From: Mogibacterium sp.
Lineage (GTDB): Bacteria; Bacillota; Clostridia; Peptostreptococcales; Anaerovoracaceae
Reading direction: 5' to 3'
DNA: 33,742 nucleotides
NCBI GenBank assembly: GCA_017431685.1
Contig: JAFRKO010000034.1
Span: forward strand, 1 to 33,742
This document shows, one piece after another, positions 596 through 11,440 of the stretch (the stretch's first letter is position 1; the number at the start of each line of letters is the position of its first letter). Under the pieces are notes generated by a model, which saw nothing but the letters and a program-made list of their open reading frames with translations, searched no databases and had not been told where the DNA came from. The position numbers and the translations under genes are program-made.

Positions 596-2611
596 ATGAG
601 AATCGCTTTTGCCGGTAACCCTAATAGCGGCAAGACAACCATGTACAATGCTTTGACGGGCAGAAATGAAAAAATCGGAAACTGGGGAGGAGTTACGGTC
701 GGAAGCAAGGAATTCCAGTTAAAAAAGGAATTCGCAGGCGGCAAGGAAGTGATTGCGGTAGACCTTCCGGGCGCATATTCGATGTCACCGTTCACACCGG
801 AAGAGGGTATAACGAGTGAGTATGTCCGTACCGCAAACCCCGATGCGATCGTCAATATCGTAGATGCTACGAACCTGAGCAGATCGCTCTTCTTCACAAC
901 ACAGCTGCTTGAGCTCGGTATTCCGGTTGTCGTTGCGCTTAACAAGACAGATATCAACGAGAAGGAAGGCACAAAGATCGATGTAAAGAAGCTCTCTGAA
1001 AAGCTTAACTGTCCTGTATTTGAGACAGTATCCACAGAGAACAAAGGTCTCGCTGAGATGATTACCATGGCGATCTCGCTCGCGGGAACTGCGCAGAAGG
1101 CGCCTTATCTGCAGGCAGACATCAACCTGCACGATAAAGCAGCAGTAGATGCAGAGGATCGCAAGCGTTATAGTTTTGTAAATGGTATTGTCAAAGACGT
1201 AGAGACAAGAAAGACCATGTCTGCTGAGACGACCTCTGCAGATAAAGTTGATGGTGCGCTGACAAATCCGATTATAGGAATCCTCGTATTCGCTGTAGTA
1301 ATGTGGGGAGTATTCTGGGTGTCTCAGGCATGGCTCGGACCTCTTGTCGCTGACTGGCTGGTAGGCTGGATCGAAACGTTCCAGGGATGGGTCGCAGGCC
1401 AGCTCGAGAACAGTCCGGCTATATTATCTGCTCTGCTTGCTGACGGAATCGTGGGCGGCGTTGGAGCTGTAGTCGGATTCCTGCCTCTCGTAATGGTGAT
1501 GTACTTCCTGATCGCTCTGCTGGAAGACTGCGGATATATGGCACGCGTAAGCGCGGTAATGGACCCTATCTTCAAGAGAGTAGGCCTTTCAGGTAAATCT
1601 GTTATCCCTGTAGTCATCGGTACAGGCTGCGGTATCCCTGCAATCATGGCATGCCGTACGATCCGTGACGAAAGAGAGAGAAGAGCAACCTCGATGCTCA
1701 CAACCTTCATCCCATGCGGAGCGAAGATCCCTGTCATCGCACTCTTTGCAGGCGCTTTCTTCAACGGCGCAGGCTGGGTAAGCACTCTCTCATATTTCTT
1801 CGGACTTGTACTGATCTTCCTGGGAGCTCTGCTTATAAAGGGAATCACAGGATATAAATACAGAAAGTCGTTCTTCATCATGGAGCTTCCGAAGTGGAAA
1901 ACACCAAGCCTTAAGTTCGCTTTCAAATCCATGATGGAGAGAGCAAAAGCATATATCATCAAGGCAGCTACGATTATCCTTGTCTGCAATACAGTGGTAC
2001 AGATCATGCAGACCTTCGACTGGCACTTCCAGGTCGTTGAAGAGGGGGCAGAGAACACATCGATTCTCGCTTCGATCGCTTCGCCATTCGCGATCCTGCT
2101 CATACCTCTGGGATTCGGAGTATGGCAGCTGGCAGCAGCAGCTATCACGGGCTTTATCGCGAAGGAGAACGTTGTTGGTACACTCGCAGTAGTATTTGCG
2201 CTTACATCATTCATCGATACAGAGGAGCTTGCAATGACAGGCGGCGCAAACACAGTAGCAGCAACTATGGGACTCACATCTGTAACAGCACTTGCATATC
2301 TGTTCTTCAATCTTTACACACCTCCGTGCTTCGCAGCTATCGGAGCAATGAACTCTGAGATGAAGAGCAGGGGATGGCTCTGGGGGGCAATCGGACTGCA
2401 GCTCGGAACCGGATACACGATCGCATTCCTGATCAATCAGTTCGGAACACTCTTTACTGAAGGCCATTTCGCAGCAGGTTTTGTACCTGGACTGATAGCA
2501 GAAGCCTGCATGGTCGCAGCAGTTGTTCTCATCGGCAGAAAAGTGAGAGCACACTTCGACGAGCAGTACGAACTTCATAAAACTTCAAAAGCTGCAAAGG
2601 CAGCAGCATAA
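596..2611 (+). CDS. feoB: FeoB, ferrous iron transport GTPase/permease
   Basis: FeoB imports Fe(II) across the inner membrane. The N-terminal G domain shows G1 GNPNSGKTT (residues 7-15), G2 around GNWGGVTVG (28-36), G3 DLPG (56-59) and G4 NKTD (116-119). From about residue 220 onward there are repeated membrane segments with two nucleoside-recognition Gate-like regions; GTGCGIPAIMACRTI and the GYMARVSAVMD segment are typical FeoB signatures. At 671 residues it is in the normal range for Clostridial FeoB. AAGGAGG (581-587) lies 8 nt upstream of the ATG. One oddity is that the G2 segment reads GNWGG where most FeoB proteins have GNWPG. It sits between feoA and the Cys-rich accessory gene. Confidence 0.95.
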   Translation: MRIAFAGNPNSGKTTMYNALTGRNEKIGNWGGVTVGSKEFQLKKEFAGGKEVIAVDLPGAYSMSPFTPEEGITSEYVRTANPDAIVNIVDATNLSRSLFFTTQLLELGIPVVVALNKTDINEKEGTKIDVKKLSEKLNCPVFETVSTENKGLAEMITMAISLAGTAQKAPYLQADINLHDKAAVDAEDRKRYSFVNGIVKDVETRKTMSAETTSADKVDGALTNPIIGILVFAVVMWGVFWVSQAWLGPLVADWLVGWIETFQGWVAGQLENSPAILSALLADGIVGGVGAVVGFLPLVMVMYFLIALLEDCGYMARVSAVMDPIFKRVGLSGKSVIPVVIGTGCGIPAIMACRTIRDERERRATSMLTTFIPCGAKIPVIALFAGAFFNGAGWVSTLSYFFGLVLIFLGALLIKGITGYKYRKSFFIMELPKWKTPSLKFAFKSMMERAKAYIIKAATIILVCNTVVQIMQTFDWHFQVVEEGAENTSILASIASPFAILLIPLGFGVWQLAAAAITGFIAKENVVGTLAVVFALTSFIDTEELAMTGGANTVAATMGLTSVTALAYLFFNLYTPPCFAAIGAMNSEMKSRGWLWGAIGLQLGTGYTIAFLINQFGTLFTEGHFAAGFVPGLIAEACMVAAVVLIGRKVRAHFDEQYELHKTSKAAKAAA

Positions 2612-2639
2612 ATCCCTTATATTGAGGCATCTTAACTAA

Positions 2640-2677
2640 GCATGGTGCGCGGCGCAATGATTCGCCGCGCATCGTGC
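2640..2677 (+). terminator. Long intercistronic hairpin between feoB and the Cys-rich gene
   Basis: A stem of about 15 bp (2640-2654 with 2663-2677, two G-T pairs) with an 8-nt loop begins 29 nt after feoB. No T-run follows, so it is more likely an RNA-stabilising or attenuating hairpin than a full terminator. Confidence 0.45.
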
Positions 2678-2708
2678 TGATTTGAAAAATGTGAAAGGAG
2701 GCAGCACG

Positions 2709-2903
2709 GTGAATGCAGCTACGATAATAGCGATAATAGTAATAGCAGCGATACTGTTCTTCGCCATCAGATATATCTATAAAGAAAAGAAAAAAGGAAA
2801 CGCCTGCATAGGCTGCCCATATGCGGATTCCTGTCCGAGGCACAGGCAAGAAGGGGCATCATGCTGCGGAAGCACAGTGCAGCACAAGGCTGATCTTAAT
2901 TAG
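2709..2903 (+). CDS. FeoB-associated Cys-rich membrane protein
   Basis: This 64-residue protein has one N-terminal membrane helix (about residues 3-24), a basic stretch KEKKKG, then a Cys-rich tail with C33, C36, C42 and C52-C53 (GNACIGCPYADSC...SCC). This is the layout of the FeoB-associated Cys-rich membrane protein family that follows feoB in many Clostridia. The tail is thought to bind or hand on iron, but its function has not been proven. GTG at 2709 is chosen as the start because AAAGGAGG (2694-2701) lies 7 nt before it; the upstream ATG at 2682 has no such site. It is the last gene of the feo operon and is followed by a terminator. Confidence 0.8.
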   Translation: MNAATIIAIIVIAAILFFAIRYIYKEKKKGNACIGCPYADSCPRHRQEGASCCGSTVQHKADLN

Positions 2904-2906
2904 ATA

Positions 2907-2935
2907 CGATTGCAGATAACTGCAGTCGTTTTTTT
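2907..2935 (+). terminator. Rho-independent terminator of the feo operon
   Basis: A 9-bp stem (2907-2915/2920-2928, one G-T pair) with loop ATAA is followed by seven T residues, directly after the stop codon of the Cys-rich gene. Confidence 0.85.
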
Positions 2936-3107
2936 ATTGGCAGATATGGACATTCTGTCAAAAGCAACTTTTCATAACAATAATATCAGCGAAATGTATA
3001 TTGCGGTTGGTAGACGTCTGCTGCGATCCGCCATACAATTATGTTAACAATAATTGCAAAAGTAGGAATGATTAGAAATAACCTAAAAATATGAAAGGTG
3101 GAAAAAG

Positions 3108-3533
3108 ATGTTTAAAGACAATCTTATCCAGCTTAGAAAGCTGCAGAATATGACTCAGGAAGACATTGCTGAGAAAGTAGGTGTATCCAGGCAGTCTGTT
3201 GCCAAGTGGGAGTCAGGTGAGACGACTCCTGATCTCGAGAAGGCAAGGCTGCTTGCCGGAGCATTAGGAGTTTCTCTGGATGATCTGACAAATTATGAGC
3301 CCCGGGAGAACATGGGGCTGGGCGTTCCTCCGAAAGGCAGATATCTTTTCGGTGTTGTTACAGTCGGAGATAAAGGACAGATAGTCATCCCCGCAAAAGC
3401 AAGAAAGGTGTTCAGCATCAGCGCAGGCGATCAGCTCATGGTCCTCGGTAAGGAAGGTGAAGGAATCGCGATAATCAAAACGGATGATTTTCTTGCGCTT
3501 GCTGACATGATAAGAAACGAAGAAAACCGGTAA
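3108..3533 (+). CDS. XRE-type HTH regulator fused to an AbrB/SpoVT-like domain
   Basis: The 141-residue protein has an N-terminal XRE helix-turn-helix (about 5-60; TQEDIAEKVGVSRQSVAKWESG) and a C-terminal swapped-hairpin AbrB/SpoVT-like domain (about 81-126; VTVGDKGQIVIPAKAR). Both halves are DNA-binding folds, so it is probably a dimeric repressor with two contact surfaces. It lies 19 nt upstream of a two-gene ABC transporter and most likely controls that operon and itself. Start ATG 3108 is preceded by AAAGGTGG. Family assignment is firm; the target operator and signal are not visible. Confidence 0.85.
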   Translation: MFKDNLIQLRKLQNMTQEDIAEKVGVSRQSVAKWESGETTPDLEKARLLAGALGVSLDDLTNYEPRENMGLGVPPKGRYLFGVVTVGDKGQIVIPAKARKVFSISAGDQLMVLGKEGEGIAIIKTDDFLALADMIRNEENR

Positions 3534-3552
3534 CTTCCGAAGGAGACCTGAA

Positions 3553-4278
3553 ATGCTTGAAATAAAAAACTATTCAAAGACATATGGAGAAGGAAAGAAA
3601 GCAGCGGACAATGTGTCGCTCACAGTTGAGAGCGGGGATATTTACGGCTTTATCGGACATAACGGTGCAGGAAAATCGACTACTATACGTGCGGTGGTGG
3701 GAGTACTTGATTTCACCGAAGGAGAGATTTTCATAGATGGGCATTCCGTGAAAGATGAGCCGATGGAATGCAAAAAGGTTACCGCATATATTCCTGACAA
3801 TCCTGATCTGTATGAGAACCTGACCGGTATCCAGTACCTGAACTTCGTAGCTGACGTTTTCGGTATCAGCGCTGCGGAGCGTGAGTACAGAATAAAGAAA
3901 TACGCCGATATGTTCGAGATCACAGACTCTCTCGGTGACATGATAAGCTCTTACTCACACGGAATGAAGCAGAAGGCAGCGATAATATCTGCGCTTATCC
4001 ACGATCCGAAACTCATGGTTCTTGACGAGCCTTTTGTAGGGCTCGACCCTAAGGCAGCGTTCACTCTCAAGGAGATCATGAGAGAGATGTGCAATAACGG
4101 CGCAGCGATCTTCTTCTCTACGCATGTGCTTGACGTGGCTGAGAAGCTGTGCAACAAGGTAGCCATAATCAAGCAGGGCAGAATTATAGCAACAGGCACC
4201 ATGGAAGAGATCACCGAAGGACATTCACTGGAAGAGGCATTCCTCGGAGACGCATTCCGGGAGGCAGACCATGAATAA
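3553..4278 (+). CDS. ABC transporter ATP-binding protein
   Basis: The 241-residue nucleotide-binding subunit contains Walker A GHNGAGKST (35-43), a degenerate signature YSHGMKQ (134-140), Walker B LMVLDEP (154-160) and the switch His in FFSTHVLD. It resembles the CcmA/EcsA type of ATPases that energise ABC-2 exporters. The 3' end overlaps the permease start by 8 bp, indicating translational coupling. The preceding gene encodes the XRE-AbrB regulator, so regulator, ATPase and permease form one unit. The substrate is unknown; drug, peptide or lipid export would all fit. Confidence 0.9.
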   Translation: MLEIKNYSKTYGEGKKAADNVSLTVESGDIYGFIGHNGAGKSTTIRAVVGVLDFTEGEIFIDGHSVKDEPMECKKVTAYIPDNPDLYENLTGIQYLNFVADVFGISAAEREYRIKKYADMFEITDSLGDMISSYSHGMKQKAAIISALIHDPKLMVLDEPFVGLDPKAAFTLKEIMREMCNNGAAIFFSTHVLDVAEKLCNKVAIIKQGRIIATGTMEEITEGHSLEEAFLGDAFREADHE

Positions 4279-9740: not shown

Positions 9741-9769
9741 TTGATATTAACAAAGCTACGTAGTACCAT
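9741..9769 (+). promoter_or_regulatory. Candidate promoter for the tyrosine-leader transcript
   Basis: TTGATA (9741-9746) and TACCAT (9764-9769) are spaced by 17 bp and lie 42 bp before the leader peptide ATG. An 18-nt dyad, TTTGTT/AACAAA (9737-9742/9749-9754), overlaps the -35 and might be an operator. Confidence 0.4.
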
Positions 9770-9810: not shown

Positions 9811-9885
9811 ATGAAACAGAGAATCAACTTCACAGCAGAATACTATTATTACTACTACCGCGACGGGGTAGCTGTTTTGCTGTGA
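9811..9885 (+). CDS. Tyrosine-rich leader peptide of an attenuator
   Basis: This 24-residue ORF reads MKQRINFTAE, six consecutive Tyr codons (residues 11-16, at 9841-9858), then RDGVAVLL and TGA. AGAAGG (9801-9806) precedes the ATG by 4 nt. A run of codons for one amino acid just upstream of a terminator is the mark of ribosome-mediated attenuation, as in his, phe and trp leaders. Here the amino acid sensed is tyrosine, and the structural gene downstream belongs to the tyrosine phenol-lyase/tryptophanase family. The stop codon falls inside the antiterminator arm (9868-9884), so a ribosome finishing the peptide would mask that arm. Confidence 0.85.
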   Translation: MKQRINFTAEYYYYYYRDGVAVLL

Positions 9886-9943
9886 GTAGTATGATAATGT
9901 GACAAACGCACATGGTTGATGATGCTCCGCAGCAAACAGCTGC
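9868..9943 (+). promoter_or_regulatory. Predicted antiterminator of the Tyr attenuator
   Basis: Segment 9868-9884 can pair with 9928-9943 through 16 base pairs (two G-U, one bulged U at 9878). This uses the top of the 5' arm, the loop and the start of the 3' arm of the terminator at 9924-9948, so the two structures exclude each other. In addition, the Tyr codon tract itself (9845-9858) can pair with 9886-9898. A ribosome stalled at the Tyr codons leaves 9868-9884 free, while one at the TGA (9883-9885) covers it. Structures were paired by eye. Confidence 0.7.
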
Positions 9944-9957
9944 GGAGCTTTTGTTTT
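9924..9957 (+). terminator. Attenuator terminator before the lyase gene
   Basis: A perfect 10-bp GC-rich stem (9924-9933/9939-9948) with loop AAACA is followed by TTTTGTTTT. It ends 34 nt before the lyase ATG and 38 nt after the leader stop codon. Confidence 0.9.
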
Positions 9958-9991
9958 GGGATTTGGATCAACAGCAAGGAGGAATACAGTA

Positions 9992-11440
9992 ATGCCCGCA
10001 ATTAAGTTTTATGATCACGAACCTATTCCTGTGGAGATGCATAAAGTCAAGATCGTTCAACAGCTTCAGCTGCTGGCGGCAGATCAGAGACTTGAGAAGA
10101 TGAGAGAAGCCGGATTCAACACGTTCCAGCTTCACAATGGAGACATCTTCATGGACATGCTTACCGATTCCGGTGTAAACGCGATGAGCGATCAGATGCT
10201 TGCAAGTATGATGACGCCTGATGATGCCTATGCAGGGAGCGAATCGTTTTTCCGCATGAGGGACAAGCTTGAAGAAATATTCGGTATGAAATACTGCCTG
10301 CCTGCGCATCAGGGAAGAGCATGCGAGAATATTCTCGCGACCAGATTCGTAAAACCGGGCAGCTGCGTGATCATGAACTATCATTTCACAACGGCAAAAG
10401 CTCATATAACCAGACTTGGGGGTCATGTTGAGGAGCTCGTAAAGGATGAAGGTCTGGTATCACAGAGCGATCTTCCGTTCAAGGGGGATATCGACCTGGA
10501 TAAGCTGGAAGCCTGCATTGAGAAGGAAGGTGCAGATAATGTTGCTTTCATGAGACTGGAGGCAGGCACTAATCTTATCGGTGGTCAGCCTGTATCGGTA
10601 CAGAGCTTCAAGGACGCCTGTGCTGTGGCAAGAAAGCATGGAATACTGTCGGTACTCGACGCATCGCTGCTGCAGGATAACCTCTACTTCATAAAGATCC
10701 GTGATGAAGAGCGCAAGGATATGTCCGTGCGTGATATCACCAGAGAGATTGCCGACCAGTTCGATATGATCTATTTCTCGGCCAGGAAGTTCGGATTCGC
10801 ACGCGGCGGAGCCATTCTTGTCAGAGACGAGGAGCTGTTCCATTCAATGGAAGATCTGGTTCCTATGTTCGAAGGCTTCCTCACATACGGCGGTATGTCG
10901 GTGCGTGAGATAGAAGCCATGACTGTAGGCTTTGATGAGTCGATGGATATGGATATCATTTCACACGGCCCTCAGTTCATAAAGTACTGTGTCGATAAGC
11001 TGGTGGAGTACGGTGTGCCTATGATAACTCCTGCCGGAGGACTGGGAGCTCATGTCGATGCAACCCAATTCGTTTCCCACATACCTCAGCAGGAATACCC
11101 GGCCGGAGCTCTTGTATGTGCGTTCTACCTGTGCGGCGGAATACGGGGAATGGAAAGAGGTACACTTTCTGAAGAAAGAAATGCTGACGGAAGTGAGAGA
11201 TTTGCATCCATGGAGCTTGTGAGACTGGCGCTGCCGAGACGCGTATTTACACTCTCACAGGTTGAATACGTGATAGACAGAGTCAAGTGGGTGTTCGATC
11301 ACCGTGATCTGATAGGCGGACTCAGGTTCGTGCACGAGCCGGCAACACTGAGATTCTTTACCGGAAAACTCGAGGCGACATCCGACTGGCCTGAGAAACT
11401 GATTGCCGCATACAAAGCCGATTTCGGTGAGGATCAATAG
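9992..11440 (+). CDS. Tyrosine phenol-lyase/tryptophanase family PLP enzyme, divergent
   Basis: Family members cleave Tyr or Trp to phenol or indole, pyruvate and ammonia, and the Tyr reaction is reversible. The 482-residue product has family marks: TDSGVNAMS, AYAGS (Y80), HQGR (R109), FTT (132-134), GGQPVS, VLDAS (D223), SARK with the likely PLP lysine K266, and the closing EPATLRFFTGKL. FTT matches tyrosine phenol-lyase; tryptophanase has FDTT. Unusually, the Arg that follows D-A-T/S in both families is Leu (L226), GGHA is GGLG, and K266 is followed by Phe, not Asp. ATG 9992 has AAGGAGG 9 nt upstream; a TTG at 9956 lies inside the terminator and is not used. Controlled by the Tyr attenuator. 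Exact reaction uncertain. Confidence 0.8.
   Translation: MPAIKFYDHEPIPVEMHKVKIVQQLQLLAADQRLEKMREAGFNTFQLHNGDIFMDMLTDSGVNAMSDQMLASMMTPDDAYAGSESFFRMRDKLEEIFGMKYCLPAHQGRACENILATRFVKPGSCVIMNYHFTTAKAHITRLGGHVEELVKDEGLVSQSDLPFKGDIDLDKLEACIEKEGADNVAFMRLEAGTNLIGGQPVSVQSFKDACAVARKHGILSVLDASLLQDNLYFIKIRDEERKDMSVRDITREIADQFDMIYFSARKFGFARGGAILVRDEELFHSMEDLVPMFEGFLTYGGMSVREIEAMTVGFDESMDMDIISHGPQFIKYCVDKLVEYGVPMITPAGGLGAHVDATQFVSHIPQQEYPAGALVCAFYLCGGIRGMERGTLSEERNADGSERFASMELVRLALPRRVFTLSQVEYVIDRVKWVFDHRDLIGGLRFVHEPATLRFFTGKLEATSDWPEKLIAAYKADFGEDQ

Follow-up and report, generated by a model that had tools for sequence, protein, structure and literature searches.

A putative tyrosine-sensing transcription attenuator precedes a tyrosine phenol-lyase-like gene in a Mogibacterium genome without detected chorismate synthase

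The window, by which we mean the whole stretch of 33,742 nucleotides that was analysed, contains a gene for a PLP enzyme of the tryptophanase/tyrosine phenol-lyase (TPL) family, preceded by a short leader open reading frame (ORF) with a run of Tyr codons and by an intrinsic terminator (Table 1). The terminator has a 10-bp stem (9924–9933 with 9939–9948) followed by the T-rich tail TTTTGTTTTG. Strand 2, which the leader stop codon (9883–9885) overlaps, can pair with strand 3 over 16 pairs with one bulge, and the resulting antiterminator excludes the terminator; including flanks, the duplex has a predicted energy of −30.0 kcal/mol, against −21.6 kcal/mol for the terminator hairpin. Strand 2 can also pair with strand 1 (−22.4 kcal/mol), which completes the set of 1:2, 2:3 and 3:4 helices. 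A preliminary description of this DNA had listed a leader of 24 codons that include six Tyr codons in a row, the terminator, a 16-bp antiterminator that excludes it, and a leader stop codon within the antiterminator arm, and we found each of these at the coordinates it gave. Its further claim, that the Tyr tract also pairs with 9886–9898, fared less well: the sequence there is conserved only among the closest relatives in our alignment. The folding check that it proposed gave a clear result, with a whole-leader fold at a z score of −5.69 that none of 200 shuffled sequences equalled.

Table 1. Positions of the leader elements and the structural gene in the window, with one T-box from elsewhere in the same genome
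Feature	Position	Strand	Basis
Possible sigma-70-type promoter, TTGATA-17-TACCAT	9741..9769	+	Scan: one match against 1.0 expected by chance
Leader ORF, 24 codons, MKQRINFTAEYYYYYYRDGVAVLL then stop	9811..9885	+	Tyr-run leader in 21/80 fetched loci
Strand 1, partner of strand 2 (1:2 helix)	9829..9847	+	Duplex energy
Six consecutive Tyr codons, putative sensing codons	9841..9858	+	Tyr kept, TAC/TAT vary
Strand 2, antiterminator 5' arm, overlaps leader stop codon	9868..9884	+	Duplex energy, alignment
Strand 3, antiterminator 3' arm, common to terminator	9928..9943	+	Duplex energy, alignment
Intrinsic terminator	9924..9957	+	Sequence scan, alignment
Shine-Dalgarno-like AAGGAGG of structural gene	9976..9982	+	Sequence
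482-aa PLP enzyme, tryptophanase/TPL family	9992..11440	+	Profile matches, PDB match
Trp T-box (UGG) before TrpB-like gene	L105:1501-1764, genome G000:C54	-	Rfam, specifier reading

Runs of five TAY codons occur at two places in the 2.74-Mb genome, namely the leader and the interior of a long ORF, so that no other Tyr-run leader was found in it. In the window, no T-box or other Rfam family reached its gathering score (RF00230 included). The genome is probably that of a gut or rumen bacterium, judging from the sources of nearly identical genes, for example goat jejunum.

A scan with one genome per species returned 314 stretches encoding a relative, and among the best 80 of these 314 a Tyr-run leader is present in 21 loci, 19 of them Mogibacterium-like and the other two being L044 and L050. 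The Mogibacterium-like group comprises 22 loci (L009–L029 and L064); the three in which no leader was seen (L019, L022 and L023) have upstream DNA of only 177, 1 and 248 bases. We aligned the window with its 21 leader-bearing relatives, 22 sequences in all. In this alignment, 96.3% of the 352 antiterminator cells can pair, and seven cells are changed on both sides; for the terminator the figures are 96.4% of 220 cells and 21 cells. Neither count of two-sided changes was reached in 500 shuffles, which ignore relatedness. In 20 of the 22 sequences no more than 3 of 200 shuffles match the antiterminator energy; the antiterminator is weak in L021 (27/200 as good) and L064 (114/200). The 1:2 helix energy is reached by at most 7 of 200 shuffles in 18 of the 22 leaders, and the helix is weaker in L021 (11/200), L026 (49/200), L064 (24/200) and L044 (12/200). 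Each leader has four to eight consecutive Tyr codons, 129 in total (73 TAC and 56 TAT), and since the two codons are mixed it is the amino acid that is kept, not the letters. The comparison with relatives thus returned what the preliminary description had asked of it, kept Tyr codons together with both-sided changes in both of the competing helices. That the Tyr run and the hairpins are a coincidence, or that the terminator is a plain unregulated one, seems very improbable to us: the weak antiterminators of L021 and L064 would suit such an account, but the fold score, the retention of the arrangement in 22 sequences with both-sided pair changes, and the scarcity of such Tyr runs elsewhere in the genome all speak against it.

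Three other observations concern these relatives. The contigs of L044 and L050 bear the label Candidatus Saccharibacteria; both have the gene at 2501, the Tyr-run attenuator upstream of it and similar genes downstream. On the strength of these contig labels, a transfer of gene and switch between phyla is possible. In L023, the place that the attenuator occupies in relatives has a group II intron match (107–172), 76 bases upstream of the gene. In L064, the TPL-like frame (2501–3946) is broken after 439 residues.

We propose that region 9811–9957 acts as a ribosome-mediated transcription attenuator that senses charged tRNA-Tyr. With tyrosine plentiful, the ribosome would reach the leader stop codon and cover strand 2, the terminator would form, and the gene would be off. 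With tyrosine short, the ribosome would stall within the Tyr run, strands 2 and 3 would pair, no terminator would form, and the downstream gene would be on. In the absence of translation, strand 2 would be taken up by the 1:2 helix, and strand 3 could then form the terminator. Sequence comparison supports the architecture of the RNA, the conservation of that architecture and its link to tyrosine, and the switch very probably works in the cell as drawn.

Read by eye, the tail of the leader over strand 2 is VAVLL-like in 13 of the 22 leaders (one of them VVVLL), CFAV, CLAV or CFVAE in six, and different again in one, and two leaders stop at the strand 2 edge. Because the strand 2 RNA is kept while the tails use different frames, selection appears to act on the RNA and not on the peptide tail. 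The suggestion that the nascent peptide arrests ribosomes at high tyrosine, as TnaC does with tryptophan, is disfavoured by a C-terminal half that is not kept as peptide; we set a TnaC-like arrest leader aside, there being no conserved arrest peptide and the tail frames and lengths varying over the kept RNA.

Other members of the family lie behind T-boxes. Rfam places T-boxes with the specifier UAC (Tyr) before the orthologues L034, L039 and L043, and T-boxes below the gathering score precede L056 and L057, again with UAC, where the next base is not the usual A. A sample of 398 genomes of the phylum contained, besides the window's own, 42 genomes with a family member at 51–63% identity; with L125 and L126, from a sample of the bacterial family, these make up a distant group of 44. 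In this group a UAC T-box precedes 22 members (9 from Rfam alignments and 13 read by pattern). In three more (the f46 members L170, L172 and L173) the gene is preceded by another kind of Tyr-rich leader ORF, for example MNRYYAYTTACPCAYRRV and a stop, with hairpins and a terminator-like stem after it; this is a probable third leader type of the family. No Tyr control was seen by pattern before 16 of the 44 (four of them also searched with Rfam), and the upstream DNA of two is not readable. The T-box before the remaining member (L157:2991-3211, minus strand) reads UGC (Cys-like), the only such specifier read before a family gene; its genus-mate G433 reads UAC. Specifier readings were checked on T-boxes of other genes, giving ACC for thrS (cut by the locus end), UAC for tyrS, UGG for a trpB-like gene and CAC for a hisZ-like gene.

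A looser T-box pattern, applied to up to 600 bases upstream of the 38 members without detected control (340 bases including the gene start in the case of L171), matched in none of them. Six of these 38 (L040, L042, L081, L139, L141 and L154) have an ORF with scattered Tyr codons in AT-rich DNA, which we take as chance. Six loci (L151–L153, L159, L166 and L169) have a second short ORF between the T-box and the gene, Tyr-rich in L151–L153, possibly a second layer of tyrosine sensing. A GCTTTAA/TTAAAGC-type motif lies within 130 bases upstream in 16 of 52 members without Tyr control (for example L032, L040, L042 and L054) and in none of 26 with it, the pattern having been picked after some of the same sequences had been viewed; it is perhaps the operator of some regulator.

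T-boxes respond to uncharged tRNA by switching their genes on. Since the T-box and the Tyr-run attenuator are both tied to uncharged tRNA-Tyr, low tyrosine should turn the family on. The predicted logic of the window's switch, in which tyrosine shortage turns the gene on, had been put forward from this one leader, and is now backed by 22 aligned leaders and by independent T-boxes with Tyr specifiers.

In the window's genome (94.45% complete, 4.85% contamination) we found no DHQ synthase, chorismate synthase (AroC) or TrpA and no convincing prephenate dehydrogenase, only two weak partial matches to the latter, one of which, with neighbours, is just above the family cut-off. At this completeness a single absence could be a gap, which is unlikely because most of the leader-bearing relatives show the same absences; chorismate synthase is missing in the window's genome and in 16 of its 21 leader-bearing relatives. 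The missing genes fit the first of the alternatives raised in the preliminary description, that the enzyme works towards synthesis.

We tested 50 genomes, consisting of the window's own, those of all loci with a leader or a UAC T-box, and those of 23 loci that have neither, so that 31 of the 80 loci are not represented in the set. The aroC gene is present in 7 of 27 Tyr-controlled genomes (in L026's as fragments) versus 22 of 22 uncontrolled ones, prephenate dehydrogenase (at least 67 bits) in 5/27 versus 21/22, DHQ synthase in 6/27 versus 20/22 and TrpA in 1/27 versus 16/22; the tested genomes are related, so that these counts are not independent and the Fisher values overstate the evidence. 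Partial prephenate dehydrogenase matches of about 19–27 bits were taken as other NAD-binding proteins, and L030, with 87 bases upstream, was left out of the uncontrolled group in the Fisher test. G218 was left out as a duplicate, its upstream sequence matching that of L064 exactly. Of the 22 distant-group genomes with a UAC T-box, 14 have aroC (G328 as a fragment); it is present in none of the three f46 genomes and in all 16 in which no control was found. The distant-group Fisher test omits L157 (UGC), G371 (assembly gap), G636 (gene at contig end) and the three f46 members.

Among the tested genomes, 31 carry the gene, lack aroC and have readable upstream DNA; 28 of these show Tyr control, and the other three have the f46 Tyr-rich leader. 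The preliminary description had held that relatives keeping the gene without the Tyr run would speak against the switch. Many such orthologues exist, and to that extent the point goes against it; the 38 tested gene carriers without detected control nevertheless all keep aroC. The converse fails, as aroC is retained in many genomes with Tyr control. Within the 50-genome set, seven such genomes retain aroC and five a prephenate dehydrogenase, so that Tyr control extends beyond auxotrophs. A genome can also lose aroC without carrying the gene, since neither was found in the same-genus genome G184. Full-length prephenate dehydratase matches occur in the genomes of L011, L014 and L016 (G003, G006 and G008), where aroC and DHQ synthase were not found.

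The encoded protein passes the NF009709/PRK13238 tryptophanase subfamily profile (564.7 bits, cut-off 285) and falls below the TIGR02618 TPL equivalog cut-off (440.5 bits, cut-off 720.7), and its best PDB match is the TPL 9j3u. In a tree of 48 rows chosen from the set (in which the label 'none' denotes no T-box or Tyr run by pattern), the family is split from TPL and from two tryptophanase-like rows with support of 100/100. Compared with TPL 1c7g, all 112 family proteins keep Y71, T124, K257, M379, R381, R404 and F448, of which we take T124, M379 and R381 to be phenol-binding and Y71 and K257 to be catalytic. All 112 have Leu in place of R217 and Arg in place of K256, and 111 have Phe in place of M288. 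The tryptophanase-like homologues (n = 7) keep R217 and K256 and have Asp at 124, and the six that cover positions 381 and 448 have Ile and His there. L064, with its 439-residue frame, was left out of this comparison, and the group labelled as having neither Tyr leader nor T-box includes five members with short upstream DNA (L019, L022, L023, L030 and L124). Given that R217L and K256R occur throughout, the chemistry of the family may differ from that of TPL. A kept phenol-binding pocket with altered cofactor surroundings would suit a TPL relative with a changed balance or specificity.

We propose that this TPL-like enzyme supplies tyrosine in a bacterium without the shikimate pathway. The most likely chemistry would be the joining of phenol with pyruvate and ammonia, or of phenol with serine, to give tyrosine. 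The enzyme probably makes rather than breaks tyrosine, and phenol is its ring donor on a somewhat less secure but still favoured reading. The joining direction of TPL is in industrial use, according to the part of the source available to us (PMC7508748). A study of rumen fluid, in its accessible text, quantified cresols but not phenol, and mentions rumen phenol from other work (PMC9776526).

Two other accounts of the enzyme have to be weighed. Classical TPL is catabolic, and the window's gene could encode an ordinary tyrosine-degrading TPL whose leader peptide stalls ribosomes at high tyrosine, as TnaC does, so that the gene is on when tyrosine is plentiful. The retained catalytic and phenol-binding residues are consistent with this, as is the overlap of the leader ORF with the antiterminator. 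The leader tails, however, run in various frames over a conserved strand 2, individual leaders have anywhere from 4 to 8 Tyr codons, and other family members lie under Tyr T-boxes, which are on with uncharged tRNA; moreover, a Tyr-auxotrophic bacterium would be destroying its own tyrosine supply. We consider this account improbable. The second accepts the attenuator as described and has the enzyme remove toxic tyrosine analogues, such as meta-tyrosine, or process another amino acid that matters when tyrosine is short. The changes R217L, K256R and M288F (Phe in 111/112) relative to TPL would fit, as would the many aroC-positive genomes that carry a Tyr-controlled gene and the one T-box that reads UGC. 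We nevertheless regard it as unlikely, though deserving more weight than degradation, in view of the invariant phenol-binding residues and the strong association with loss of the shikimate pathway. A Tyr-sensing attenuator upstream of a Tyr-supplying, TPL-like enzyme is, taken as a whole, the explanation that we think likely.

Tryptophan offers a parallel. In the window's genome a T-box with the specifier UGG, itself below the Rfam gathering score, precedes a TrpB-like gene (NF009057, 681.6 bits). Of the 27 Tyr-controlled genomes, 12 have TrpB-like genes above the family cut-off, and a further one has such a gene in two pieces. TrpB-type enzymes condense indole with serine. A TrpB-like gene under a Trp T-box, in a genome without detected aroC or trpA, is probably a means of indole salvage, its function being read from the family name. 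In the part of the source available to us, indole salvage by an auxotroph is documented in Chlamydia trachomatis (PMC6504234). The Tyr-controlled TPL-like gene and the Trp-controlled TrpB-like gene look like one strategy, in which aromatic amino acids are rebuilt from the rings of neighbours.

We lean, by a small measure, towards a more general view: that a widespread family annotated as tryptophanase/TPL is a tyrosine synthase that uses the phenol of other microbes, is turned on when tRNA-Tyr is uncharged, by leaders of at least two unrelated kinds (the T-box and the Tyr-run attenuator, with a probable third that is Tyr-rich), and is the tyrosine counterpart of indole salvage in bacteria without the shikimate pathway. 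Regulation and genome distribution together suggest that a family annotated as degradative behaves as Tyr-supplying. The regulation reverses the annotation, as tryptophanase/TPL genes are usually taken to produce indole or phenol. Phenol is a precursor of a uremic toxin, according to the available part of the source (PMC11259132), and family members under control by tyrosine starvation may consume it instead. This predicts cross-feeding from phenol to tyrosine among shikimate-less bacteria, a route that would account for the ability of some of them to live as auxotrophs for aromatic amino acids. The T-box and the translated leader stand in for each other before one gene family. In the open-licence literature, which leaves most subscription journals outside, we found no report of an attenuator or T-box before a TPL-like gene, in agreement with the preliminary description, to which no attenuator of this type was known for this family, and none of tyrosine synthesis as the natural role of TPL.

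Compared with known systems, the window enzyme shares with TPL (1c7g, 9j3u; TIGR02618) the fold family, the PLP lysine, T124, M379, R381 and F448, but differs in scoring below the equivalog cut-off, in R217L, K256R and M288F, and in its opposite regulatory logic. The tna operon has the short leader TnaC before a gene of the tryptophanase/TPL superfamily. The window likewise has a short leader before an enzyme of this superfamily, but without a conserved arrest peptide and with the logic reversed. With the TrpB indole salvage of C. trachomatis it shares the idea of an auxotroph that rebuilds an aromatic amino acid from a neighbour's ring, whereas in our case phenol would provide the ring, and a member of the lyase family would run in the reverse direction. 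The Tyr T-boxes (of tyrS and other genes) have the same signal, uncharged tRNA-Tyr, and the same output, on at low tyrosine, and occur before other members of the family too; the window instead has a leader ORF, no T-box, and a TPL-like target gene. In the accessible text of one study, Tyr T-boxes of the Bacillus cereus group are assigned to a tyrosine biosynthesis operon and to phenylalanine-4-hydroxylase, a Tyr-supplying enzyme (PMC2494555). Another, in the part available to us, reports leader peptides replacing T-boxes at hisS in Firmicutes, and its authors present the His leader peptides before hisS/hisZ in bacilli as the first outside Proteobacteria and Actinobacteria (PMC2965389). The classical attenuators (the trp, his, pheA and pheST leaders) have, like the window, a leader with cognate codons, 1:2, 2:3 and 3:4 helices and a terminator, and the logic predicted for the window is the same as theirs; the window differs in that it would sense tyrosine, precedes a gene annotated as a degradative lyase, and belongs to a host in Bacillota. 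Judged from its sequence, the window's switch would match a classical attenuator in the features that can be tested by comparison, though only partly so in its 1:2 helix.
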